Shown one piece after another: positions 1,464-24,103 of a DNA stretch of 56,510 nucleotides. The DNA lies in the NCBI RefSeq assembly GCF_000447755.1, contig NZ_AUNE01000026.1, positions 1 to 56,510 of the forward strand, in the 5' to 3' direction. The stretch is from Bacteriovorax sp. BSW11_IV. GTDB taxonomy: Bacteria; Bdellovibrionota; Bacteriovoracia; Bacteriovoracales; Bacteriovoracaceae. How positions within the stretch are numbered: the stretch's first letter is position 1; each line of letters begins with the position of its first letter. The position numbers were made by a program, and so were the translations under genes. The notes under the pieces were generated by a model, which saw only the letters and a list, made by a program, of their open reading frames with translations, ran no database searches and was not told the origin of the DNA.

Positions 1464-3170
1464 ATGGTTTACGTTTTCACAAAATTTGCTAATGGTCTCT
1501 GCTCGGGGTATTGTAGACGTCCGATTACGAGGAGAGAGCTTATTAAGTTTTTGGCCCTGCAACTCATTATTCTGTGTTTCTCAAATGTGGTCCTAGGCTT
1601 TGACGCCTTTGATGATTTTGCAGAACGCATCGACTTCTCGCAAGAATGTGAGCGCAATGCTGAATACGTATCTGAAGTGGATTACTCGGTTGATTGTGGC
1701 CTTTATTACCATCATTATAACTCTCAATCATACAATTACTCTTATCTGACCAATAGTAATTCTAAGGTTAGGATTGGATCGTGGAATGTTTTCCACCCAG
1801 GTATTGGAAAAACTCAATTTAAAGACTTTAAGCTTGTCGCAAAAATTTTAAATCAGTGGGATGTTGTCACTGTTCAAGAGCTTTTACCACTAATCGGTGA
1901 TGATCTTAGACATAACGAAGCCGTGTTAGGACTTTTGGATGATGGGCCATGGCAATTAAAAAAGTTAACGGATAAATTAAGTACCCTTAATCCCGGTACA
2001 AAAGTATACGAACGAACGAAGAAGAGTATTGATGATTTAAAAGCTGATCTAAAAGAAGCAAAAACTCTCTATCGCTCTCCTGGCTACCTACAAATCTTGA
2101 ACGAACTTCGAAAAATTGATCCTTCTTGGGCGCTAATTATTTCTCCTAATCCTGAAGGTACTGAGGGCTCATTTATTAATGAGCTTGTAGGTTTTTATTA
2201 TAGAGCAACTTCAGTTCGTCCTACGGTAAATGAGCATTGTAGTGAATTTCGTGAAACAAAATCATTTCCAGCATTTGCATGTTACCCAGAGTTTTCTTCC
2301 AAGTTTATGTATAAAAACTACGAAGGACTTTTCTCTAGAAAACCATTTATGGCCAGTTTCCAATCAGGGAACTTTGACTTTGTTTTAATGGGAACTCATA
2401 TTATTTTTAATTCACCATCTGATGAAGAACTCATGGGGAAAATCTTATCGAAAGTCTTCGGTGTCGAATCATATGATGAACTAGGGGCAGGAGTTGACTC
2501 GAAAAATTATGCTCGGTATGCCGAAGTGAAGATGACTCTAGATTTTATTAGAAAATTCAAAAAAACCTATAAAGAACAAGATTTTATTTTAGGTGGGGAT
2601 TTTAATATTGAGTACAATGAGCCTTTAATTAAATCAATTCTAGCAAAATACAATGGAATTAATTTTTTAATGGAAGAACCCACGAGCTTGGCCAATAAAA
2701 GATATGTGGTTGGTGGAGTCGATAGTGAAGGGTACTCAAAGAACTTCGACCATTTCATTTTATTTAATGAAACAGATAAAGAATGTCGCTCAGGCGGTGA
2801 ATATCATTTGAACAGAATTGATTTTTATTCAGGTGAAATTCTTGATTATATGAAAGAAAATTATATCGTAAGAAATGTCGGGCGATATGATCGACTCGCG
2901 CCTGATTATGAGATGACTGCCTCTGGTAAAAAGATCTATCAGAAGGCCATGAAAAAGTATGAAGAAGAACTGAAGGCCATGAGAACGATTAAACGTGGTA
3001 AAATCGTTTTTGAAAACACTTCAGTTCAAAGTAAACTTGAAACTTTTGAGCGCCGAGTTTTTCTAAACCAATTGAGTGATGACACTTTCTATGGTGTGTA
3101 CCAAGAGATTATTAGTGATCACGTGCCAATTGATCTTAGTTGCAATACTTCATTTAGAGATGATGATTAA
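1464..3170 (+). CDS. Exported endonuclease/exonuclease/phosphatase-family protein
   Basis: This 568-aa protein carries the motifs of the EEP (DNase I/exonuclease III-like) superfamily in order: RIGSWNV near residue 103, VVTVQEL with the metal-binding Glu, MGTHIIF, LGGDFNIEYNEP with the D-x-N pair, DHFILF, and a C-terminal SDHVPI with the catalytic Asp-His. The N-terminus contains TRRELIK (22-28) followed by a hydrophobic run, which fits a twin-arginine export signal. Long Lys/Glu-rich insertions make it larger than a typical EEP domain of about 300 aa. It is probably an extracytoplasmic nuclease, though this superfamily also includes phosphodiesterases and lipid phosphatases. The stop overlaps the convergent gene by 4 nt. 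Confidence 0.8.
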   Translation: MVYVFTKFANGLCSGYCRRPITRRELIKFLALQLIILCFSNVVLGFDAFDDFAERIDFSQECERNAEYVSEVDYSVDCGLYYHHYNSQSYNYSYLTNSNSKVRIGSWNVFHPGIGKTQFKDFKLVAKILNQWDVVTVQELLPLIGDDLRHNEAVLGLLDDGPWQLKKLTDKLSTLNPGTKVYERTKKSIDDLKADLKEAKTLYRSPGYLQILNELRKIDPSWALIISPNPEGTEGSFINELVGFYYRATSVRPTVNEHCSEFRETKSFPAFACYPEFSSKFMYKNYEGLFSRKPFMASFQSGNFDFVLMGTHIIFNSPSDEELMGKILSKVFGVESYDELGAGVDSKNYARYAEVKMTLDFIRKFKKTYKEQDFILGGDFNIEYNEPLIKSILAKYNGINFLMEEPTSLANKRYVVGGVDSEGYSKNFDHFILFNETDKECRSGGEYHLNRIDFYSGEILDYMKENYIVRNVGRYDRLAPDYEMTASGKKIYQKAMKKYEEELKAMRTIKRGKIVFENTSVQSKLETFERRVFLNQLSDDTFYGVYQEIISDHVPIDLSCNTSFRDDD

Positions 3171-12301: not shown

Positions 12302-13069
12302 ATGAATGCCTATAGTTTGACTTTAGTTTGCTTAATTGGCCTTTTCCATTTGTTTTATGCAGTTGCCGTTTGGCGAAAGGACTTTTCTGTCATCGATATT
12401 TGCTGGGGGCTTGGGCATCTCGTTCCTCTATATTTTTCTCTTACTTTTTCTTCACATATTGAACTTCGTCAAATATTTGTCTCGGCCATAGTTTTTCCAT
12501 GGGCACTACGTTTGTCTATGTATATCCATTATCGCAGCATCGGCAAAGGTGAGGACCATCGATATAAAAAAATGAGATTGGGCTATGGAGATAAAGCAAA
12601 TATAAAGGCCTATACGAATATTTTCTGGCTGCAAACAATTTTGTTGTTCGTCATCTCCCTGCCAATATTGTTTATAAACTTATCTCCTGAAAATGATATT
12701 TCTTATTGGGATTATGCAGGTTTTTTCATTTCTATCTTGGGACTTCTTATTGAAACAATTGCTGATTGGCAAAAGCATAAGTTTAAAAAGTCTTATCCTG
12801 ATAAATTAGTGACAACAGGTCTGTGGAAATATAGCCGACATCCTAATTATTTTGGAGAATGCCTTGTTTGGTGGGGTGTTTTTCTTATGTCTATAGGTGC
12901 TCAAGTTTGGCAATGGAGTTTATTCTCGCCTTTATTTTTAACATTTTTAATTTTGAAAGTTTCGGGCGTTTCAATGTTGGAAAAAAATTATACTAATAGA
13001 GAAGGATATGATGATTATAAAAGAAAAACGTCATCTTTTATTCCATGGTTTCCTAAGGAGCTAAGATGA
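12302..13069 (+). CDS. DUF1295 family membrane protein (steroid 5-alpha-reductase-like fold)
   Basis: A 255-aa polytopic membrane protein of the DUF1295 family, related to 3-oxo-5-alpha-steroid 4-dehydrogenases and ICMT-type methyltransferases. The family hallmark GLWKYSRHPNYFGECLVWWG is present in the C-terminal half, and the ending YDDYKRKTSSFIPWFPK is also typical. Several hydrophobic segments span the membrane. The natural substrate is unknown; an NAD(P)H-dependent lipid double-bond reduction is plausible. It is the first gene of a seven-gene operon and overlaps the next gene by 4 nt (ATGA). Confidence 0.88.
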   Translation: MNAYSLTLVCLIGLFHLFYAVAVWRKDFSVIDICWGLGHLVPLYFSLTFSSHIELRQIFVSAIVFPWALRLSMYIHYRSIGKGEDHRYKKMRLGYGDKANIKAYTNIFWLQTILLFVISLPILFINLSPENDISYWDYAGFFISILGLLIETIADWQKHKFKKSYPDKLVTTGLWKYSRHPNYFGECLVWWGVFLMSIGAQVWQWSLFSPLFLTFLILKVSGVSMLEKNYTNREGYDDYKRKTSSFIPWFPKELR

Positions 13070-13383
13070 GAAAAGTAATTATTAGCATTAATCTTATTCT
13101 TTTTTTAGCGATGGTCTATACGACTCTTTGGGCATCTTTTCAAATTAATTTATTTGATGAGCTTGAAAGTTATATCGATATGCCTTGGTTTAGGGCAACT
13201 CTAATTGATTTCTATATTAACCAATTTGTTATTTGGATTTTCGTTCTTTGGAATGAAAGAAAGAGATTGGTGGCCTTCGCGTGGCTGCCCGTATTCATTT
13301 GTTTTGGAAGTATGGGGACAACACTATATGCAATATTTTTCTGTTTCAAAAATAAGAATCTATTTAAAAGGGAGACGTTATGA
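13066..13383 (+). CDS. DUF1475 family small membrane protein
   Basis: A 105-aa protein with three or four hydrophobic segments. The central block MPWFRATLIDFYINQFVIW followed by a short polar turn and CFGSMGTTLYAIFF matches the DUF1475 family, best known to me from plant genomes. Its function is unknown. ATGA overlaps join it both to the DUF1295 gene before it and to the methyltransferase gene after it, so its expression is locked to theirs. A supporting role in the same membrane-lipid reaction series is a reasonable guess. Confidence 0.75.
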   Translation: MRKVIISINLILFLAMVYTTLWASFQINLFDELESYIDMPWFRATLIDFYINQFVIWIFVLWNERKRLVAFAWLPVFICFGSMGTTLYAIFFCFKNKNLFKRETL

Positions 13384-14402
13384 TTGATACGATAGTGGCC
13401 AAAGGAATGATTCCTGATTTCTTTTTACGTAAAGGTATTCAAAATTTAGTTCAAAAAAGATTGAAAGAAATTTCTAGTGCTCATGTCGACCTTTTAGAAA
13501 AACGTCGCCAGTCTTTAATCAAAGAGTTGAAGCTCTCTCCAATTGCAATTGAAACAGATTTAGCAAATGACCAGCATTATCAAGTTCCCTCAGGCTTTTT
13601 TGAGAAAGTGCTAGGTGAAAACATGAAGTATAGTTGCGCTTTTTTTGAAAAGGGCAATGAATCTTTAAAAGAAGCTGAGTCCAAGATGCTAAAAATTACT
13701 TGCGAAAGGGCACAGATCAAAGATGGTATGAAAATACTTGAGCTTGGATGTGGATGGGGTGCAATCACTCTTTATATGGCCAAACAGTATCCGAACTCAG
13801 CAATTACAGCTGTATCGAACAGTAAAACACAAAGAGAATTTATTCTGAATAAGGCACAGAAGCTTGGGCTTTCGAATGTTGAAGTCATTACTGCCAATAT
13901 GATTGATTTTGATACAGATTTGAAATTTGATCGAGTTGTTTCTGTAGAGATGTTTGAGCATATGAGAAATTATGAAAAACTTCTCGAAAAAATTTCAAAA
14001 TGGCTAAATGACGAAGGGAAACTTTTTGTTCATATTTTTGTTCATTCAAAATTTAGTTATAAATTTGAAGTGAATGATGAAACTGATTGGATGTCTAAGT
14101 ACTTCTTCTCTGGCGGAATTATGCCGAGTGAACACCTCCTTTATTATTTTCAGAAAGATTTATCTATTAAAAATCATTGGACGTTATCTGGGCGACATTA
14201 TGCTCAAACGGCCAGAAAATGGTTGAATAATATGGATGATAACAAAAGTGACATTATGAAAGTCTTCAACGATCACTATGGTCCAAAAGATGCCATGAAA
14301 TGGTTTAATTATTGGCGTGTCTTCTTTATGTCTTGCGAAGAATTATGGGCCTTTGATGATGGTCGTGAGTGGCTAGTGGGACATTATTTATTTGAAAAGT
14401 AG
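13380..14402 (+). CDS. CFA-synthase-superfamily methyltransferase, coclaurine N-methyltransferase-like
   Basis: A 340-aa SAM-dependent methyltransferase. Motif I is ILELGCGWGAITLYMA near residue 120. Motifs YSCAFFE, MFEHMRNYEKLLEKISKWL, FFSGGIMPS and the SGRHYAQTARKWL ending are those of the plant coclaurine N-methyltransferase branch of the cyclopropane-fatty-acid-synthase family. Bacterial relatives are usually annotated as class I methyltransferases of unknown substrate. GGGAG lies 6 nt before the ATG. Given the neighbours, an unsaturated fatty acyl chain is a likelier substrate than an alkaloid. The operon also encodes a classical CFA synthase, so the two enzymes probably do different chemistry. 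Confidence 0.88.
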   Translation: MIDTIVAKGMIPDFFLRKGIQNLVQKRLKEISSAHVDLLEKRRQSLIKELKLSPIAIETDLANDQHYQVPSGFFEKVLGENMKYSCAFFEKGNESLKEAESKMLKITCERAQIKDGMKILELGCGWGAITLYMAKQYPNSAITAVSNSKTQREFILNKAQKLGLSNVEVITANMIDFDTDLKFDRVVSVEMFEHMRNYEKLLEKISKWLNDEGKLFVHIFVHSKFSYKFEVNDETDWMSKYFFSGGIMPSEHLLYYFQKDLSIKNHWTLSGRHYAQTARKWLNNMDDNKSDIMKVFNDHYGPKDAMKWFNYWRVFFMSCEELWAFDDGREWLVGHYLFEK

Positions 14403-14408
14403 GTATAT

Positions 14409-15668
14409 ATGAAAAAAATGGCCATTATTGGTACTGGTATTTCTGGAATGAGCTGTGCTTATTTTTTACAAGATCATTTTGATATAACGATTTTTGAGAA
14501 AAATGACTATATCGGTGGTCATACAAATACAATTGAAACTTGTTACGAGGGTGAAAAGGCCGTTTTTGACACAGGCTTCATGGTTTTTAATGAAGTTACT
14601 TATCCCAATTTGTTGAAGTTGTTTAAAAAACTCGATGTCAATTACTATGATACACAGATGAGTTTCTCCGTGGCCGATAAAAATATTGGTGTTGAGTATA
14701 ATGGATCAAGTCTCGGTGGACTTTTTTCTCAGTGGCAAAATATTTTTAACTTAAAGCATTTAAAAATGCTCTTCAATATAGATCGCTTTAATAAAAAATC
14801 TCCTCAGATTTTAAGTGACGAGTTCTATAGTGATATGACTGTCAGTGAATTTGTTGAGAAATGGCAATTGGGGGAAGAGTTTCTTCATCGATTTCTCGTT
14901 CCCATGTCTTCTGCTGTCTGGTCAACTCCACATGATAAAATGCTAGAGTTTCCAATCAAAACACTTGTTCGCTTTTTCTTTAATCATGGTTTTATGGGAT
15001 TAAATACTCAACATCAATGGAAAACAGTGGAAGGTGGAAGTCGTGAGTATCGCGATAAGTTAATTGCAAGTTTTAAAGATAGAATAAAAGTAAGCTCAAA
15101 AGTCGAGCGTGTCGTTCAGCACCGAGAGGGTGTGGATGTGTACGTTAATGGAGTTAAACATTCTTTTGATAAAGTAATAATGGCCTCTCATGCTGATGAA
15201 TCCTATGCGGTAATAGATAACCCTACAGATGTGCAAAGAAGTATTCTTAGTCAATTTTCTTATCATGAAAATACAGCGATTGTTCATACCGATATTAATG
15301 TATTACCGAAATTAAAAAAGAACTGGTCTGCTTGGAATTATATTTCAGACACTGGAGCGAGAGGAACTCAAACTTTTACGGTTTACAATATGAATGTCTT
15401 ACAGAATTTGAAAACTAAGCATCATTATCTCATCAATATTAATGGCGAAGAATTTATTTCAGAAAATAAGATTATTAAAAAGATTAAATATCATCACCCT
15501 GTATTTGATATTCATGCTGTTAACGCGCAAAAAAGAATCCATGAGCTAAATGCTTCTCATTCAAATATTTACTTTTGTGGAGCTTGGCAACGTTATGGGT
15601 TTCATGAAGATGGACTTCTGTCTGCAGTAAACTTATGTGAGTCCATTCTTGGAAAAGAGGTTCTATGA
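14409..15668 (+). CDS. FAD-dependent amine-oxidase-like oxidoreductase (UfaD-type context)
   Basis: A 419-aa flavoprotein with an N-terminal dinucleotide fold (MAIIGTGISGMSCAYFL) and the extended amine-oxidase/phytoene-desaturase-like motif EKNDYIGGHTNT. The C-terminal FAD motif is recognisable as NIYFCGAWQRYGFHEDGLLSA. Proteins of this type next to CFA synthase and DUF1365 are part of the Rhodobacter singlet-oxygen response, where a related enzyme (UfaD) acts in furan-fatty-acid synthesis. That link is from context and general family resemblance. It sits 6 nt after the methyltransferase and overlaps the DUF1365 gene by 4 nt. Confidence 0.85.
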   Translation: MKKMAIIGTGISGMSCAYFLQDHFDITIFEKNDYIGGHTNTIETCYEGEKAVFDTGFMVFNEVTYPNLLKLFKKLDVNYYDTQMSFSVADKNIGVEYNGSSLGGLFSQWQNIFNLKHLKMLFNIDRFNKKSPQILSDEFYSDMTVSEFVEKWQLGEEFLHRFLVPMSSAVWSTPHDKMLEFPIKTLVRFFFNHGFMGLNTQHQWKTVEGGSREYRDKLIASFKDRIKVSSKVERVVQHREGVDVYVNGVKHSFDKVIMASHADESYAVIDNPTDVQRSILSQFSYHENTAIVHTDINVLPKLKKNWSAWNYISDTGARGTQTFTVYNMNVLQNLKTKHHYLININGEEFISENKIIKKIKYHHPVFDIHAVNAQKRIHELNASHSNIYFCGAWQRYGFHEDGLLSAVNLCESILGKEVL

Positions 15669-16432
15669 ACTCTTATTTAATCAATGTAAAAGTTAAGCAT
15701 ACTCGCTTTTCACCAAAAAGATACTCCTTTGGTACCAAGTTCTTTTGGTTTTGCATTGATTTAAATGAACTTGATGAGATTACAAGAAAATTTCCTCTCA
15801 TTGGTCATAATGATTTTGGCATATATGTTTTTAAAGATAGTGATCATTTGAAATTCGGTTCAGCAAGTCTAATGAACAATGTAAAAACTTATGTTTCTCA
15901 ATTTGAAACCAAGGAAATTACAAAGGTTGAATTGATTACAAATTTGCGTTTTCTCGGATACGTTTTTAATCCTGTTTCGTTCTTTAAAATTACTTTCGCA
16001 GACAGTTCTACGTCGGCCATTCTTCAAGTCGGAAATACTTTTAATGAGATTAAACCATTTTATGTTCATTCAAAATGTATGAATAAGAACGGTTTTAGTA
16101 TTACCGAGACAAAAAACTATTATGTATCTCCATTTATTCAGATGGATTCTGTTCTGAAGTTTTGCTTTAGTGAAAAAAATAAGAAAATTAATATTTCTGT
16201 GACTTCAAGTGTTCACGACGAAGTTGTTCTTAGTGCTGTCGCAAGTGGGAGAAAGGAAGAGTTATCTGTCATAAATCTTCTTTGGATGACTATTCGATAT
16301 CCTTTTAACACATTGAAGATAATTACGCTTATTCATTGGCATGCCCTCATTTTATTTTTAAAGAGAATTAAATATTTCAAAAAAACAGATGATAAAAATC
16401 TTCAAATAGGAGCTCAAATATGGAAAATTTAA
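15665..16432 (+). CDS. DUF1365 family protein
   Basis: A 255-aa soluble protein with DUF1365 landmarks: the N-terminal VKHTRFSPKRYSFGTKFFWF and the central LRFLGYVFNPVSFF, followed by NEIKPFYVHSK. The biochemical role is unknown, but the family is almost always found beside CFA synthase and an FAD amine-oxidase-like enzyme, as here, and belongs to the photo-oxidative-stress regulon of Rhodobacter. GAGG lies 5 nt before the ATG. The gene overlaps its upstream neighbour by 4 nt and its downstream neighbour by 13 nt. Confidence 0.9.
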   Translation: MNSYLINVKVKHTRFSPKRYSFGTKFFWFCIDLNELDEITRKFPLIGHNDFGIYVFKDSDHLKFGSASLMNNVKTYVSQFETKEITKVELITNLRFLGYVFNPVSFFKITFADSSTSAILQVGNTFNEIKPFYVHSKCMNKNGFSITETKNYYVSPFIQMDSVLKFCFSEKNKKINISVTSSVHDEVVLSAVASGRKEELSVINLLWMTIRYPFNTLKIITLIHWHALILFLKRIKYFKKTDDKNLQIGAQIWKI

Positions 16433-17670
16433 AATATGTAGATATTGAAAAAGTAGAAAATAAAGGTCTTGCCCGAACACTTGTGTGTTCTTTACTAAAA
16501 AGAATGAACAAGGGGAGATTAACTCTTACATTTCCAGAAGGTCTTATCGTTCAAATCGGCGATGGCATAGGGCTTAGTGCTGAAATAGTAATAAAAAACG
16601 AAGGTTTTTTTAAAAAGTGCATGCTTAGTGGAGATATAGGTTTTGGGGAATCTTATTCTGATGGTGATTGGGATACGCCTGATCTAACGGCCGTGGTGAA
16701 ATGGCTTATTTTTAATCTAGACAATGTTGCTCTGGCTTCGGGGAGTAAAAGAAAGAGTCCAATGATGAATTTAATGAGCCTTATGAATAGGGTTGGACAT
16801 ATTTTTAATCGAAATTCAAAGTCTGGTAGCCAGGCCAATATTTCATATCACTATGACATGAGTAATGATTTTTTCAAACTGTTTCTAGATAAAACGATGA
16901 CATACTCATGTGGCATTTTTCAAGATGGCGAAGATTTGTATAAATCTCAACTCGCTAAGTATGAACAACTTTGCAAGGATCTTGATTTAAAAGAAGGTGA
17001 ACATGTTCTTGAGATCGGTTGTGGTTGGGGTGGCTTTGCAGAATATGCTGCGACTCACTATAAGGTTAAAGTGAAAGGAATCACAATTTCAAAAGAGCAG
17101 TATGATTATGCTAAAGAAAGAATTGCAAATGCCAGACTAGAAGATCTTGTAGATATTGTTTTTTGTGACTATCGTAATTTAGAAGGTCAATTTGACAAAA
17201 TTGTCTCTATTGAAATGATTGAAGCCGTTGGTGATGAGTTTTTACCAACATACTTTGAAAAAGCATCTTCTTTACTTCGTGCAAATGGAGTTTTTGTTAT
17301 TCAGGCCATTACAAGTCCGGATAGTAGATATGAGTCTTTTAAAACTGGTGTAGATTGGATTCAAAAGCATATTTTTCCAGGATCACTGCTTCCATCTGTA
17401 GGGGCCATGAATAGAGCAATTGAAAAAACTGACTTTCATATCTTCTCATTGAGAGATATTGGACTTCATTATGCTACAACTTTAAGAAAGTGGCGTGAGC
17501 GCTTCGAAGAGAATTGGGGCACAATTGCAGAGTTAGGATATGATCTTGAGCTAAAAAGAAAATGGATTTATTATTTTTGTTACTGCGAAGCTGCTTTCGC
17601 TATGAGAAATATTTCTAATGTACAGGTTGTATTTATAAAACCTAATAATACAGAGGTTCATCAATTATGA
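16420..17670 (+). CDS. cfa: Cyclopropane-fatty-acyl-phospholipid synthase
   Basis: A 416-aa SAM-dependent enzyme that modifies unsaturated phospholipid acyl chains at the membrane. An N-terminal lipid-binding region (LTFPEGL, FGESYSDGDWD) precedes the catalytic domain with HYDMSNDFFKLFLDKTMTYSC, motif I VLEIGCGWGGFAEYA, SIEMIEAVG, and the C-terminal LHYATTLRKWRERFEENW. These are all CFA synthase hallmarks. Because such enzymes can also make methyl-branched acyl chains (UfaM type), the product may be a cyclopropane or a methylated fatty acid. AGGAG precedes the ATG by 7 nt. It is the second CFA-superfamily gene in the operon. Confidence 0.94.
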   Translation: MENLKYVDIEKVENKGLARTLVCSLLKRMNKGRLTLTFPEGLIVQIGDGIGLSAEIVIKNEGFFKKCMLSGDIGFGESYSDGDWDTPDLTAVVKWLIFNLDNVALASGSKRKSPMMNLMSLMNRVGHIFNRNSKSGSQANISYHYDMSNDFFKLFLDKTMTYSCGIFQDGEDLYKSQLAKYEQLCKDLDLKEGEHVLEIGCGWGGFAEYAATHYKVKVKGITISKEQYDYAKERIANARLEDLVDIVFCDYRNLEGQFDKIVSIEMIEAVGDEFLPTYFEKASSLLRANGVFVIQAITSPDSRYESFKTGVDWIQKHIFPGSLLPSVGAMNRAIEKTDFHIFSLRDIGLHYATTLRKWRERFEENWGTIAELGYDLELKRKWIYYFCYCEAAFAMRNISNVQVVFIKPNNTEVHQL

Positions 17671-18632
17671 AGCCAACTTTAGATAAGCAAAAACCTACAA
17701 TTGTTGTAAGTGCATGTCTGATGGGTGATAGCGTGAGATGGAATTCAACAGCGGCGACTTGCCGCTTTATCACAAATGAGCTTGCAAATCACGTGAATAT
17801 TATCACGATTTGTCCTGAAATGATGATGGGACTTGGCGTTCCTCGCCCAGCAATTAGACAGGGGGTACATTTAAGTGATCCACATAAAAAATTAATTGTT
17901 GAATCCAAATCAAGTCGTGACCACACAGAACTTGTTGAAGCTACAAAAGCACCTGTTGTCGAAAAATGTCATAACGTCGAAGGTTTTATAATGAAGGCCA
18001 AGTCTCCAAGTTGTGGACTTGAAAAAGTAAAACTCTATAATCTAGACAACGGACACAGTATTGATCATAGACAAAAGGGCGTGTTTGCTGAAGTGTTGAT
18101 GGATACTTTTAAAGATGCAAGCTTTATTGACGAAGGGCGATTGATAGATCATCACTTAAGAGAACACTTTGTCATTGGTATTTTTTCTCTGTTTAATTTG
18201 AAATCCATAGAACCAAGCTTAAGTTCTCTTCAGAAATTTCATGCTGAATATAAATATCTTCTCATGTCGTATAATTCTTATGCTCTTAAGAAGTTGGGTG
18301 ATCTATGCGCAAATAGAAATAATGATTCTTTTGAGTCTGTTTATGACAAGTATTATGAACTATTTAGTCAAACGATTAAACTCCCCTTAGATACAGGTAA
18401 GGTCTATAATACTCTTGTTCACATATATGGCTATTTTAAGAAGATTGTTGACGATAAAGAAAAGCATCATATTCTTGGACTTCTAGATCAGTACAAAAGA
18501 GGAAGTTTGCCAATGACAGTTCCTCTTGAAATTCTCAATTATCTTACCAAAAAATATGAAGTGAAATACTTGGCCGCCCAGAAAATCTTTGCGCCTTATC
18601 CTGAAGAATTGGCGCTCAGACGATTTATTTAA
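17667..18632 (+). CDS. DUF523-DUF1722 protein (TudS-like with YbgA-like domain)
   Basis: A 321-aa two-domain protein. The first half is DUF523 with the three iron-sulfur-binding cysteines SACLMG, TICPEMMMG and SPSCG. DUF523 members include the thiouracil desulfurase TudS. The second half is DUF1722 (LLMSYNSYALKKLGDLC and the C-terminal KKYEVKYLAAQKIFAPYP), as in E. coli YbgA. In E. coli ybgA sits next to phr, and here the photolyase gene is the convergent neighbour with an 8-nt overlap. A role in handling damaged or thiolated bases or in light stress is suggested but unproven. Confidence 0.85.
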   Translation: MKPTLDKQKPTIVVSACLMGDSVRWNSTAATCRFITNELANHVNIITICPEMMMGLGVPRPAIRQGVHLSDPHKKLIVESKSSRDHTELVEATKAPVVEKCHNVEGFIMKAKSPSCGLEKVKLYNLDNGHSIDHRQKGVFAEVLMDTFKDASFIDEGRLIDHHLREHFVIGIFSLFNLKSIEPSLSSLQKFHAEYKYLLMSYNSYALKKLGDLCANRNNDSFESVYDKYYELFSQTIKLPLDTGKVYNTLVHIYGYFKKIVDDKEKHHILGLLDQYKRGSLPMTVPLEILNYLTKKYEVKYLAAQKIFAPYPEELALRRFI

Positions 18633-20052
18633 TTGTTTTATAGAGCTTTAAACATTCTTCCCGTCTAACAGCATAATTCACAATAGGAGAAGGGTAGTCT
18701 TCTCCTATTTTACATTTTGCTTCAATTTGCTTAAGAAGATCACACTCGTGAGGGGCATGAATATCTTTATTACTAAAATGTGAAAGCTCAGGGCAAAATC
18801 TTCTTATGTATTCCCCATCAGCATCGAATTTTTTTGATTGGGCATAGGGGTTAAAGATTCTAAAATAAGGGGCCGCATCACAACCTGTTGATGATGACCA
18901 TTGCCATCCACCATTATTTGCAGCTAAGTCAAAGTCCATTAGTTTATCTGCAAAATACTGTTCACCAACTTTCCAATCTTGCAGCATTATTTTGCAAAAA
19001 TAGCTGGCCACAATCATTCTCAGTCTATTTGGCATAGTTCCATAAAGATAGAGCTCACGCATGGCCGCATCGACGATAGGGACACCCGTTTCACCAAGTT
19101 TCCACTTCTCTATAATCTTATTATCTGTTGGCCATTGAATGTCGTTATACTCGTCTTTAAATGCGGCCTTCTCAACTTTAGGAAAATTGAAGAGAATCAT
19201 TTGATAAAACTCACGCCAAATAAGCTCATTTAGCCAAGATTTCTCTCCCGAATTCTTTCCCTCTGCACAAATATCTACAAGCTCTCGAATTGAGATGAGC
19301 CCAAAACGAATATAAGGGCTAATATTTGAAGTTCCCTCTCTTGATGGAAAGTCTCTAAGATGATTATAGTCGTAAATTTTAGTTTTAAATTTTTTTAAGC
19401 GGGCCAAGGCCTCTGATCGTCCACCTTTAACAAAAATGTTTTCAGTGTACTGAAACCCAATTCTATTCATCCAATCAAAGTTAGAAATTGATAATTTATT
19501 ATTGAATATGTGGAAGCTGCTTTTTGTGACTTTGAATTTTTTTAATCGTTGCGGGTTTTGTTGTAGTCGGGCCAACCAGGCCCTAGAGTAAGGTGTAAAT
19601 ACTTTATAGGGAGTACCATCATTTTTTACGACATCTTTGCCTTCAAAAATAACGTGGTCACGAAAGTTTTCGACATCAATATTTAATTTTTTAAGCTCAT
19701 TAATTACATTATTGTCCCTTGTAATTGCATAAGGCTCGTAGTCTCTATTGAAAAAGACTTTTTGAGCTTTAAGTTCTTTTGCAATATTTGGAATTTCTGT
19801 ACAGGGATCACCATAGAGTATTGTGAGTGATGATCCATGTGAAATTAGTTCTTCTTCAATTTCTTTTAAAGAGTCATAGATAAAAGTAAGTCTAAGATCT
19901 TTCTTATCTTTTATTTTATCTAGGATTATTTTATCAAAAACAAAGACAGGGATAACTTCATATCCCTGAGCTATTGCTGCAGCAAGTGCAGTATGGTCTT
20001 CTAGGCGTAAATCCCTCCTAAACCATACAAGAGCTTTATTTGAAGATTTCAT
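18625..20052 (-). CDS. phrB: Deoxyribodipyrimidine photolyase
   Basis: A 475-aa class I photolyase/cryptochrome-family enzyme that uses FAD and light to split pyrimidine dimers. The N-terminal antenna domain begins LVWFRRDLRLEDHTAL. The FAD domain contains GTMPNRLRMIVASYF, DLAANNGGWQWSSSTGCDAAPYFRIFNP, and WLNELIWREFYQ. Length and motifs match CPD photolyases rather than the iron-sulfur (6-4) CryB type. Its start overlaps the stop of the epimerase fusion gene by 17 nt, so the two form one leftward operon driven from the LitR-type control region. Confidence 0.96.
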   Translation of the reverse strand: MKSSNKALVWFRRDLRLEDHTALAAAIAQGYEVIPVFVFDKIILDKIKDKKDLRLTFIYDSLKEIEEELISHGSSLTILYGDPCTEIPNIAKELKAQKVFFNRDYEPYAITRDNNVINELKKLNIDVENFRDHVIFEGKDVVKNDGTPYKVFTPYSRAWLARLQQNPQRLKKFKVTKSSFHIFNNKLSISNFDWMNRIGFQYTENIFVKGGRSEALARLKKFKTKIYDYNHLRDFPSREGTSNISPYIRFGLISIRELVDICAEGKNSGEKSWLNELIWREFYQMILFNFPKVEKAAFKDEYNDIQWPTDNKIIEKWKLGETGVPIVDAAMRELYLYGTMPNRLRMIVASYFCKIMLQDWKVGEQYFADKLMDFDLAANNGGWQWSSSTGCDAAPYFRIFNPYAQSKKFDADGEYIRRFCPELSHFSNKDIHAPHECDLLKQIEAKCKIGEDYPSPIVNYAVRREECLKLYKTIK

Positions 20053-21382
20053 TTAAGGCCTTTTTTCTAAATTCAAATACTTTTTTAATATCCTTGTGAA
20101 CAAGAGGCATCACAATACTTCCTAGGGGACCAAGTGGCATTTGATAGCGAACTCTATCAATAATTAAAGAACCATTGTTCACTGAGAAAAAATGGTGCTC
20201 GTGGATCCATTTTTTATAGGGTCCTTTGAGTTGGATATCTGTAAAACTTTGTTCTTTGAGGTTTTTAATTTTACTTACCCATTTTAATGGGAGTCCATAT
20301 TTTTTAAATTTATATGAAAGTTCTACTCCTTCCTCTACCTTTTGAGGGGCCTGATCAATGATTGAAAAATTCATTTCTTTCGGAGTAATTTTTGAAAGAT
20401 TGCTTGGATCTTGAAAGAAGCGAACGATATCACTGTTTTCTTTTTCAATGAATTGCGTCTCTAGTATTTCACCATCACATACAGAATCGAGGGCCTTTTC
20501 GATAGTATCGTATTTAAACTTGAAATTTAAGTCTAAAAGCTTTTTGGGAATTACTTGAACACTATCTAACATAAGAGAGGACATTTCACCGAAGACAATC
20601 TTAAGCATTAGAGTTGGGGCCGGAAAAAGATTTGGAATACCGACACTCTTTGATAGTGCTTTTGAAAAATCTTTATTCGACACTATTTGCGGAGAAACAG
20701 CATTAATCGCTCCAGTTATTTTTTCGTTTTCGAGAGCATCTATATAAATAGAAACGAGATCATCCACATGAATCCAGCTCATTTTTTGAGCACCAAATCC
20801 AATAGGTCCACCTAATCCGAGTCTAAATAATGGCAGCACTTTTGCCATCATACCTTCATTTGCATCAATAACAACTCCTATCCTAGGATTCACGATACGA
20901 TCGACCTTAGTGGCGATATGAGAGGCCTTTTCCCATTCACTGCAGACATGAGCAAGGAAGCCGTTGTCTTGTTCTCCATCTTCAGCAACAGGTGTGGCCA
21001 AGTTTACTTTATAAATCCCTACGGCCGAGGTTGAGATAAATACTTTAAGATTTGTTTCTCGATATTGATTGATGGCGTTTGCCAGATTTTTTGTTCCATC
21101 TATTCGTGAACTTGTAATTTTTTGCTTTTGATTATCTGACCATCTTTTACTAGAAAGGTTTTCACCCATTAAATTGATAATAGCATCGCACTGTTGGATG
21201 GCCTCTTTTGGGGCCAAGTCCTTTGCTGGTTGCCAGCTATAATATTGACCAGGAAGATTCAATTTTTCCCTTGCAGTTTTTGCGTCACGAGAGAGAACTA
21301 TGATTTCATGACCATTAAGTACGAGATTCGTGCAAAGTTTTTTTCCAACGAGTCCAGTTGCTCCAGTTACCAAAACTTTCAT
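20036..21382 (-). CDS. TIGR01777 NAD-dependent epimerase fused to an SRPBCC domain
   Basis: Start chosen at the ATG 21382, which has GGAGGA 5 nt upstream; the earlier TTG at 21394 overlaps that region. Residues 1 to about 290 form a short-chain dehydrogenase-like epimerase of the TIGR01777/YfcH type (MKVLVTGATGLVGKKL, NLMGENLSSKRW, FISTSAVGIY). Residues from about 310 to 448 form an SRPBCC (START/cyclase-like) domain with PSNLSKITPKEMNF and HEHHFF...DRVRYQMPLG. In many bacteria these are separate neighbouring genes, often near photolyase, so the fusion supports a joint role. The substrate is unknown; a hydrophobic ligand held by the SRPBCC pocket is plausible. Confidence 0.87.
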   Translation of the reverse strand: MKVLVTGATGLVGKKLCTNLVLNGHEIIVLSRDAKTAREKLNLPGQYYSWQPAKDLAPKEAIQQCDAIINLMGENLSSKRWSDNQKQKITSSRIDGTKNLANAINQYRETNLKVFISTSAVGIYKVNLATPVAEDGEQDNGFLAHVCSEWEKASHIATKVDRIVNPRIGVVIDANEGMMAKVLPLFRLGLGGPIGFGAQKMSWIHVDDLVSIYIDALENEKITGAINAVSPQIVSNKDFSKALSKSVGIPNLFPAPTLMLKIVFGEMSSLMLDSVQVIPKKLLDLNFKFKYDTIEKALDSVCDGEILETQFIEKENSDIVRFFQDPSNLSKITPKEMNFSIIDQAPQKVEEGVELSYKFKKYGLPLKWVSKIKNLKEQSFTDIQLKGPYKKWIHEHHFFSVNNGSLIIDRVRYQMPLGPLGSIVMPLVHKDIKKVFEFRKKALNEIFK

Positions 21383-21613
21383 ATTTTCCTCCAATCTTTA
21401 CTCTCTTTATTATAGTTCTTGCTGTCCTTCTGTCTTACTTAATCTGATCTTTGGTCGTTAGACATTGTTTATACAAAACCTCGATAAATCTCATGATTTA
21501 TACATTTTGTCTTTATAATCAATTACTTATAAGTTTTGTTGATTCTTTGACAAATTTCGTATTTATGAGATTTATGTGTATCCTATGTAGAGGTCTTAAA
21601 AAGGGGTTCTTAT
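21383..21613. promoter_or_regulatory. Divergent light-regulator control region
   Basis: This 231-bp gap separates the photolyase operon from the LitR-type gene. TTTATACA occurs twice on the plus strand (21468-21475 and 21497-21504). The first lies in an imperfect dyad, TTGT-TTAT-ACAA (21466-21477). The second directly precedes TATAAT (21514-21519), where a bound repressor would block a rightward promoter. A further TTGACA stands at 21547-21552 with a weak -10 (ATTTAT, 21570-21575). On the minus strand TATAAT (21414-21409) may drive the photolyase operon; its -35 is poor. Operator function is inferred. Confidence 0.45.
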
Positions 21614-22558
21614 ATGTCTAAATATCCAATTCAAGTGGCATCAAAGCTTTCAGGCGTTGGTGTACATACACTTAGAGCATGGGAAAAGCGCTATCATGCT
21701 GTAGAGCCAGTTCGTAATGATTCTGGCCGCAGATTGTATAGCGATGATGATGTAGAAAAACTTCGTCTTCTAAGTGACCTTTGTTCTCTAGGAAATAATA
21801 TTGGTGCAATTGCTTCTAAGCAATTAAGCGAACTCAATGAGATGATGGAAAAACTCAGCGGTCGTGAGGTGAGGGTACCAAGTTCAGATCAAAATAAAGT
21901 AGAGAGTAGTAACGGTGTTATTGATATACCAGAGTCTTTAAAGAGTTTAACTCTTGCTCTTGAATTTTATAAACTGGATGTAATTTCTCACGAAGTTAAA
22001 AAACTAATTCTGGCACTGTCGCCAAAAGATTTTGTCTATAAAATCATGATCCCTTTGCTTCAAGATGTTGGATTTCGTGTTGAAAGAAAGGCCTTCTCTA
22101 TTGCACAGGAACATGCTCTCTCAGCTATTTTAAAATTTCACATTGGCCATATGATCTATCAAAGCTATCAGCAACGTAAGAAAAAGCAGTCGTTGATTGT
22201 AATCACAACTCCAGAAGGCGAACTTCATGAATTCGGTATACTGATGGCCAGCTTATTATGCTGTCACTTCGGAGTCACATTTTATTACTTAGGCCCAAAC
22301 TTACCTGCAGATGCTCTGGCCGATGCGATGAAGTCTCTTAATGCTGATGCCGCAATCATTGGCACGACAGTTGTTACAAACAACTCAATTGATCTTGATG
22401 TGTATATTGAACAGTTGATGAAAAAGACACCAAAGCAGTCACAAATTTGGGTAGGTGGTTTAGGGCATTTTAGTTTTGAGAACTTTGCTTCAAATAAAAA
22501 ATTTAAGTATCTGCCGACAATTAAACATCTTGAAGGACTTATTCAGCAATTAGATTAG
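21614..22558 (+). CDS. litR: MerR-family regulator with B12-binding domain (CarH/LitR type)
   Basis: A 314-aa regulator with an N-terminal MerR helix-turn-helix (IQVASKLSGVGVHTLRAWEKRY, RRLYSDDDVEKLRLL). Then come a B12-binding helical cap (FSIAQEHALSAIL) and a Rossmann-like cobalamin domain (GELHEFGILMASLLCCHFG and YLGPNLP). The ExHxxG motif with the cobalt-ligating His205 is intact. In CarH the signature Wx9EH holds the adenosyl group; here it reads Val156-x9-Glu166-His167, so the Trp is replaced. In known members, adenosylcobalamin promotes DNA binding in the dark and light breaks it. It likely controls the flanking photolyase and lipid operons. Confidence 0.9.
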   Translation: MSKYPIQVASKLSGVGVHTLRAWEKRYHAVEPVRNDSGRRLYSDDDVEKLRLLSDLCSLGNNIGAIASKQLSELNEMMEKLSGREVRVPSSDQNKVESSNGVIDIPESLKSLTLALEFYKLDVISHEVKKLILALSPKDFVYKIMIPLLQDVGFRVERKAFSIAQEHALSAILKFHIGHMIYQSYQQRKKKQSLIVITTPEGELHEFGILMASLLCCHFGVTFYYLGPNLPADALADAMKSLNADAAIIGTTVVTNNSIDLDVYIEQLMKKTPKQSQIWVGGLGHFSFENFASNKKFKYLPTIKHLEGLIQQLD

Positions 22559-23201
22559 AAATGATTTGATCAATAATTTCTTTTTCTTTGTCTGAGACTG
22601 AGCGTATGAGATTTTCTAAGATATGGCGTGTTTCCTTAGAGTATCGAATAGCAAAAGAAGGGTCTGCAATTTTGAGATCAGAAACATTGTCTAGACGATC
22701 ACAAAGCTTAATAAAAAAAGCTTCGCTAGACATTCTATTTATCTTCTTAGAAAGATAATGAACTTTCCCATACCTCTGAGACAGGAGTTTATTTGTTGTA
22801 AGCTCCCTTACTAGATTCGCAACTTCCTTACCGAATATTTTTCTAATTTCATTATACGTTGCGCTCGTGTCTTCTAGCGTGTCGTGAAGTAGTGCCGCTA
22901 TTACTTGATTGGTACTTCCACCATTATTTAAAACAGTATGGGCCACTCTGACAGGGTGATAAAAATAAAGCGATGAATCTACTTTTCTAATTTGTCCGTA
23001 GTGTTTTAGATAACTAAACTCAATGGCCTTTTTAATGAGTTGATGATTCTTTCCTACAAGAAGATTTTGAACGAATTTATTTTTTAAAAAACTTTCTTGA
23101 TGAAAAATTGTGACCTTTTCAAAGCACGCATCAATAGATAGGGGTGCGAACCCTAGAATTGCGAGGCAAAGAATGAGGATGATCCTGATTTTGTCGTTCA
23201 T
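22539..23201 (-). CDS. Exported HD-domain protein, MESH1/SpoT hydrolase-like
   Basis: A 220-aa protein whose first 25 residues look like a Sec signal peptide (MNDKIRIILILCLAILGF ending in SIDA). The rest matches the HD hydrolase half of RelA/SpoT and the small MESH1 hydrolases: FYHPVRVAHTVL with His82, AALLHDTLEDTS with His106-Asp107 and Glu110-Asp111, FGKEVANLVRELT, and IKLCDRLDNVSDL with Asp168. These enzymes remove the 3-prime pyrophosphate of (p)ppGpp, and some act on NADPH. An exported copy would meet extracellular or prey-derived substrate, which is unusual. The Cys after the putative cleavage site does not form a standard lipobox. The stop overlaps the litR-type gene by 20 nt. Confidence 0.8.
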   Translation of the reverse strand: MNDKIRIILILCLAILGFAPLSIDACFEKVTIFHQESFLKNKFVQNLLVGKNHQLIKKAIEFSYLKHYGQIRKVDSSLYFYHPVRVAHTVLNNGGSTNQVIAALLHDTLEDTSATYNEIRKIFGKEVANLVRELTTNKLLSQRYGKVHYLSKKINRMSSEAFFIKLCDRLDNVSDLKIADPSFAIRYSKETRHILENLIRSVSDKEKEIIDQIISNLIAE

Positions 23202-23413: not shown

Positions 23414-24103
23414 ATGAGAGCAATGATGACGAAATTAATGTTAGTAGCAACTTTATCACCACTTTGTATCAGCACATTGGCCAGCCCTCTTGATCCGGCG
23501 ATTAGAGATTGTCGTGAAAAAGTAAGATTCCAAAATGAGCAAATAGCGAGCTTAAGAGTCGATGTTCAGTCTGCTCAAAGACAGGCCCAAACTCTAAGAG
23601 ATGATAACGCTGCCCTAAACCTTAAAGTAAAGGACCTGAGATCTGATAAAGATACTCTTCAAGATAAAGTTCAAAGACTAAGGGAGGACTTAAGGGTTTG
23701 TGAAGATCGTAGAGGACCACGCGAAGAAGTTGAACGTCTAAGAAATGAGAATGAGATTTTAAAGCGTGAAGTTGCAAGACTAAATCTTCAAGTTCAAGAT
23801 CTTAAAGATCAGCTAGAAGAGCAAAATGGAGGGGGACAACAAGCGAAGACTAAGATTATCAAGGCCTGTGCTTCAATCCAAAATTCATTCTACTCAAACC
23901 GCTGTGTGGAAACAGCATTATCACTTGAAGTTAAACCAAACGTAGTCGTAGCATGTATCGACTCAGTACAATTAGATATGTACAAAGTTGAATGTATCGA
24001 TGTCGCAGCTCGTGTGAAAGCAACTGCGCCTCAAGTAAAGGCCTGTGGTAAAACACAAGGTGGAGACTTTTGGATTGTTAGATGTATCTCAGAAGTTCAA
24101 TAA
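23414..24103 (+). CDS. Exported coiled-coil protein with a triple cysteine repeat
   Basis: A 229-aa protein. AAGGAG lies 6 nt before the ATG and a signal peptide covers roughly residues 1-24 (ending CISTLASP). Residues 30-140 form a long heptad-rich coiled coil (SLRVDVQSAQRQAQTLRDDN, VERLRNENEILKREVARLNL). After a Gly/Gln linker come three repeats of about 23 residues, each beginning with Ala-Cys and holding a second Cys 12 or 13 positions on (ACASIQ...RCV, ACIDSV...ECI, ACGKTQ...RCI). The spacing suggests a disulfide in each repeat. I do not recognise a named family. Confidence 0.82.
   Translation: MRAMMTKLMLVATLSPLCISTLASPLDPAIRDCREKVRFQNEQIASLRVDVQSAQRQAQTLRDDNAALNLKVKDLRSDKDTLQDKVQRLREDLRVCEDRRGPREEVERLRNENEILKREVARLNLQVQDLKDQLEEQNGGGQQAKTKIIKACASIQNSFYSNRCVETALSLEVKPNVVVACIDSVQLDMYKVECIDVAARVKATAPQVKACGKTQGGDFWIVRCISEVQ

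Follow-up and report, generated by a model that had tools for sequence, protein, structure and literature searches.

A small alarmone hydrolase with a predicted Sec signal peptide in Bacteriovorax sp. BSW11_IV and its relatives within the phylum

Alarmone metabolism is regarded as intracellular. Among its enzymes are small alarmone hydrolases (SAHs) such as MESH1, whose human form acts on ppGpp, NADPH and CoA (PMC13221220); MESH1 also acts on (p)ppApp (PMC7644958), and the title of PDB entry 9chy indicates binding of PAPS. This wide substrate range is disputed, since little NADPH hydrolysis by MESH1 enzymes was found in PMC7644958, according to which characterised SAHs vary in their specificity for ppGpp and ppApp. 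MESH1 is cytosolic, to judge from the title of Ding et al. 2020 as cited in PMC13221220. Sec-exported alarmone synthetases (EAS: SaEAS, VpEAS and RelV), which produce (p)ppGpp and (p)ppApp outside the cell, were first described at the protein level in 2025 (PMC12691689). When we searched the literature for alarmone hydrolases that are exported or act extracellularly, we found no report. Here we describe a SAH gene whose product is predicted to leave the cytoplasm, located in the window analysed, a stretch of 56,510 nucleotides of the Bacteriovorax sp. BSW11_IV genome (contig NZ_AUNE01000026.1).

Domain architecture, active site and gene neighbourhood

The protein is a small alarmone hydrolase of the MESH1/SpoT type, in line with the initial annotation. 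The Pfam HD_4 model covers residues 66-194 (57.6 bits, cut-off 27.2; E 1.6e-15), residues 59-195 align with the beginning of the RelA/SpoT model, and a PDB sequence search ranked Lmo0812 first, followed by fly and human MESH1. An AlphaFold model built from four homologues (mean pLDDT 85.5, with residues 17-34 below 50) found MESH1 as its best structural match (TM 0.81 by target length, Z 21, rmsd 2.3, 166 residues); weaker matches included the P. aeruginosa SAH (Z 18.7) and YpgQ, a more general HD hydrolase (Z 11.5). All the HD-domain residues listed in the initial annotation are present and correctly numbered, namely the metal ligands H82, H106-D107 and D168 and the E110-D111 dyad. Together with R72, K73 and N172, which we take, after MESH1, to be substrate pocket residues, they are invariant in the eight homologues (this protein and seven relatives) and match MESH1. 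Only HD domains exceed the Pfam cut-off within the 220 residues, and neither a regulatory domain nor the RelA_SpoT synthetase domain that defines the EAS was detected. The protein is likely, with good confidence, to be active as a 3'-nucleotide (pyro)phosphohydrolase; its sequence does not settle the specificity for ppGpp versus ppApp.

The gene is standalone (Table 1). No RelA_SpoT synthetase match was found near it, and carriers of different families have no neighbour genes in common. A partner synthetase nearby was ruled out on these grounds and because the genome encodes only one long Rel, its single PF04607 match, and no other synthetase. Promoter and terminator scans gave no hits. As this long Rel is kept separately, the stringent response does not need the exported SAH.

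The convergent MerR-type regulator probably has a function unrelated to the hydrolase. It stands at the end of a gene run (12302-22558) with cyclopropane-type methyltransferases, an FAD oxidoreductase, a photolyase and others, which resembles a CarH/LitR light-response cluster. Elsewhere in the window (1464-3170) a 568-aa protein is encoded, apparently an exported enzyme of the endonuclease/exonuclease/phosphatase type and possibly another exported nucleic-acid degrading activity.

Table 1 Features of the hydrolase gene, its predicted product and the adjacent genes in the window
Feature	Position	Strand	Basis
CDS, putatively exported small alarmone hydrolase-like protein, 220 aa, ATG start	22539..23201	-	HD_4, closest PDB sequences, start-codon scan
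Predicted Sec signal peptide, residues 1-25 (MNDKIRIILILCLAILGFAPLSIDA), SPI-type site between IDA and C	23127..23201	-	Rule-based score, eight homologues, no alternative start codon
Cys26, counterpart of the N-terminal Cys in 8/8 mature proteins	23124..23126	-	Homologue comparison
Linker, residues 26-51, signal peptide to HD domain; model confidence low to moderate	23049..23126	-	AlphaFold model
HD hydrolase domain, residues 52-216	22554..23048	-	HD_4 (residues 66-194), MESH1 structure match (residues 50-220, Z 21)
His82, metal ligand	22956..22958	-	Invariant in homologue alignment; aligned with MESH1 His
His106-Asp107, HD motif	22881..22886	-	Invariant in homologues; aligned with MESH1
Glu110-Asp111, ED dyad of alarmone hydrolases	22869..22874	-	Invariant in homologues; aligned with MESH1
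Asp168, metal ligand	22698..22700	-	Invariant in homologues; aligned with MESH1
Divergent neighbour, exported coiled-coil protein; arrangement kept in G001 (same genus)	23414..24103	+	ORF, signal-peptide rule, G001 locus
Convergent neighbour, regulator of the MerR type carrying B12-binding domains; its 3' end runs 20 bases into the hydrolase gene	21614..22558	+	ORF

The predicted N-terminal export signal and the cysteine behind it

Export signals were called with a rule written for this analysis (not SignalP), which scores n-region charge, a hydrophobic core and small residues at -3/-1. The N-terminus of the window protein has a mean hydropathy of 3.37 over an 11-residue stretch, an n-region net charge of +1 and the cleavage site IDA. 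No in-frame ATG, GTG or TTG occurs between M1 and codon 86, nor upstream as far as the stop, which rules out a wrong start codon; the hydrophobic segment is thus no annotation artefact unless a rare start (e.g., ATT) is used. Codon 86 already lies inside the HD domain, past the metal ligand H82, and a complete domain therefore requires this N-terminus.

A single positive call is weak evidence by itself, because the rule flags 13 of the 48 window ORFs of at least 150 aa; most of these are plausible exported or membrane proteins and at least one, the FAD oxidoreductase, is probably a false call. The weight of the prediction rests instead on the homologues. All eight proteins are positive, the start codon of several homologues having been picked from more than one candidate, and their signal sequences have diverged while keeping the properties of a Sec/SPI substrate (cleavage sites IDA, VRA, AQA, SRA, LTA, SDA, SMA and LRA). 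The same rule was positive for 0/76 SAH-type HD proteins of viral contigs and phages and for 1/86 other RSH sequences, a spurious call upstream of the likely start; short SAHs of the same phylum outside the exported group have no such N-terminus. The Sec-type signal peptide proposed by the initial annotation is thereby upheld as a prediction, and the protein is very probably exported through Sec.

A cysteine lies 1-8 residues past the cleavage site in 8/8 exported SAHs and is the sole Cys of the mature protein in seven of them, the window copy having a second, C167. This pattern hints at a disulfide between molecules or at some other use of the residue. Being the first residue after the predicted cleavage in the window protein, and never far from that point in any of the eight, the Cys also speaks for a different reading of the N-terminus, either as an uncleaved inner-membrane anchor holding the enzyme on the outer face or as the signal of a lipoprotein attached via Cys26, with the kind of substrate unchanged. 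However, the sequences around the Cys (IDAC in the window; NIC, MEC, QTC and others in the homologues) do not conform to the lipobox [LVI][ASTVI][GAS]C, most homologues having Asp, Arg, Glu or Ile at positions that call for small or aliphatic residues, and an SPI-type x-x-Ala site is found in 8/8. As the lipobox is not conserved among the eight homologues, a lipoprotein was ruled out, and anchor and lipoprotein taken together are an unlikely alternative. Least probable is that the protein is a cytoplasmic SAH and that its hydrophobic N-terminus fails to act as an export signal, e.g., with a rare start codon further in: the characterised SAHs found in our searches are regarded as cytoplasmic, but the stretch up to codon 86 is free of the usual start codons and the signal features are kept in every homologue and absent from the controls.

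Distribution and relatives of the putatively exported proteins

Homologues were sought in 369 genomes of the phylum, including 129 of the same family (f1), with thresholds that more diverged copies could escape; exported SAHs were found in a patchy set of 8/369 genomes, four of them among the 129. The seven relatives are 33-45% identical to the window protein. In G001, the only other species of the genus in the set, a protein of 45% identity is encoded at the corresponding locus, again with the coiled-coil protein as its divergent neighbour. The remaining carriers are G011 and G102 within the family and G246, G278, G284 and G288 elsewhere in the phylum. Another member of the family, G003, which is probably Halobacteriovorax marinus SJ, is without an exported SAH gene. 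In two exported SAHs (L069:967-2178, minus strand, and L068:1414-2517, plus strand) the intact HD domain is followed by a second, degenerate one that has lost its motif residues and is perhaps regulatory or half of a pseudo-dimer.

The closest sequences outside the bacterial carriers are SAH-type proteins on viral contigs, at no more than 47% identity, and a search of genome contigs for relatives returned only a long Rel of Ruminococcus. In the larger tree the exported SAHs branch among SAHs of the viral type and apart from the long Rels. The reduced tree is less clear, and the position of the viral SAHs relative to the exported group differs between the two trees; the trees neither reject nor establish that the exported group arose only once (p-AU 0.155). 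An origin as a copy of the hydrolase domain of the host Rel was ruled out, because the reduced tree sets the long Rel group apart at 100/100 support. A known defence system was ruled out as well, the PADLOC anti-phage defence models giving no match to the window protein at E 0.01. On viral contigs (L131, L139, L143, L149, L151, L153, L164 and others) SAH-type HD domains also occur in long frames of about 380-1480 codons, in which they are fused to other phage domains.

Possible roles and comparison with known systems

Since an export signal is present here and in the seven relatives, work on nucleotides outside the cytoplasm is probable. The fold family, the complete active site, the conserved signal peptide and the standalone gene are seen in the sequence, whereas export, activity, substrate and role are inferred; the best explanation overall, to which we would give an even chance, is a Sec-exported periplasmic SAH that hydrolyses nucleotides of other cells. 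Residues 1-25 would be removed by signal peptidase I after Sec export, and the mature protein, mostly one MESH1-type HD domain, would fold in the periplasm, holding Mn2+ or a similar metal by H82, H106, D107 and D168. The E110-D111 dyad may then take the 3'-pyrophosphate off (p)ppGpp and (p)ppApp, or the 2'/3'-phosphate off related nucleotides such as NADPH, CoA and PAPS. With the enzyme in the periplasm, its substrates would come from other cells, damaged or consumed in the neighbourhood; the products would be ordinary nucleotides fit for salvage, and foreign alarmones would be kept from entering intact. That the enzyme serves to handle nucleotides of foreign cells is, taken by itself, a claim that we rate marginally below even. 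Free (p)ppGpp is expected to be scarce outside cells, which counts against this explanation. The genome of the window has a remote match to nucleotide transporters of the NTT/TLC type (G000:C9:4666-5553, L205:1177-2433; 40 bits against a cut-off of 21), found also in G001, G102 and G003 and absent from the four carriers outside the family, which fits salvage weakly; NTTs are nucleotide carriers and have been noted in Halobacteriovorax marinus (PMC5381601). No UshA-type 5'-nucleotidase that would complete the classic periplasmic salvage route was found in this genome, and no conserved operon across the carriers points to salvage.

The exported SAH might instead be a counterpart or antidote to alarmone synthetases that neighbouring cells, or the cell itself, export through Sec, removing alarmones made outside the cytoplasm. 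Such synthetases are known to produce (p)ppGpp and (p)ppApp extracellularly (PMC12691689), and one carrier, G288, also encodes a signal-peptide-bearing protein with a RelA_SpoT synthetase domain (L118:1108-2049, minus strand; 35 bits against a cut-off of 27). Against this, no exported synthetase was found in the genome of the window, and G288 is alone among the other seven carriers in showing one; a search of the 369 genomes gave no relative of the G288 RelA_SpoT protein at E 1e-8 or better, and the two G288 genes lie on different contigs. We consider such an antidote improbable for the window protein. In its own right, the G288 protein may be an exported alarmone synthetase from a lineage that the 2025 paper does not name.

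The initial annotation had offered two roles in predation, which is itself putative for this organism: destruction of nucleotides released from prey, and a block of the prey stringent response. Its domain assignment and export signal stand, the latter conserved and genuine-looking, and destruction of nucleotides released from other cells is the better half of that reading; the predation role is weak. A weapon delivered into prey to lower ppGpp would require the protein to leave the predator cytoplasm, as is predicted, and the family very probably includes Halobacteriovorax, as we assume from G003. Yet only 4/129 family genomes carry the gene (G003 does not), and Sec export ends in the periplasm, whereas a block of the stringent response requires access to the prey cytoplasm; we know of no route that takes a Sec-exported protein there. 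With so few carriers in the family and in the phylum (8/369), the exported SAH is no core predation gene, and a function as a prey-directed weapon is quite unlikely.

Periplasmic hydrolysis of nucleotides from other cells stays the favoured explanation. Beside the exported synthetases, a conserved exported hydrolase would be another, independent indication that 3'-(pyro)phosphorylated nucleotides are of importance beyond the cytoplasm, and it would offer a reagent at hand for testing this. If the substrate were CoA, NADP(H) or PAPS, the enzyme would add a new periplasmic step of cofactor salvage. More tentatively, the conserved family of this phylum might be the degrading counterpart of the exported synthetases, which we hold to be rather unlikely; if so, both the synthesis and the breakdown of (p)ppNpp would take place outside the cytoplasm, between cells.

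Among known enzymes, MESH1 (HDDC3; PDB 3nr1, 5vxa and 9chy; fly 3nqw) resembles the window protein in fold, metal and catalytic residues and in having a single HD domain with no synthetase, but is only about 27% identical and has neither a signal peptide nor the Cys-containing N-terminal extension. The bacterial SAHs of P. aeruginosa (6yvc), C. glutamicum (RelH, 7qod), Leptospira (7qoe) and Listeria (Lmo0812, 4yf1) share the single HD domain, the HDxxED motif and the fold; they are regarded as cytoplasmic, whereas in the window protein and its relatives a predicted Sec signal peptide, with a Cys behind it, precedes the domain, two of the relatives being set further apart by the second, degenerate HD domain. 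The viral-contig proteins are up to 47% identical, yet our rule detects a signal peptide in none of the 76. The EAS, as described in the available part of PMC12691689, where no exported hydrolase is reported, are alike in belonging to the RSH superfamily, in their Sec signal peptide and in being standalone genes without an immunity partner; they differ in having a synthetase domain and making alarmones, while the window protein has a hydrolase domain only. The exported SAH is accordingly a new exported form of a known kind of enzyme, preceded by the synthetases of 2025.
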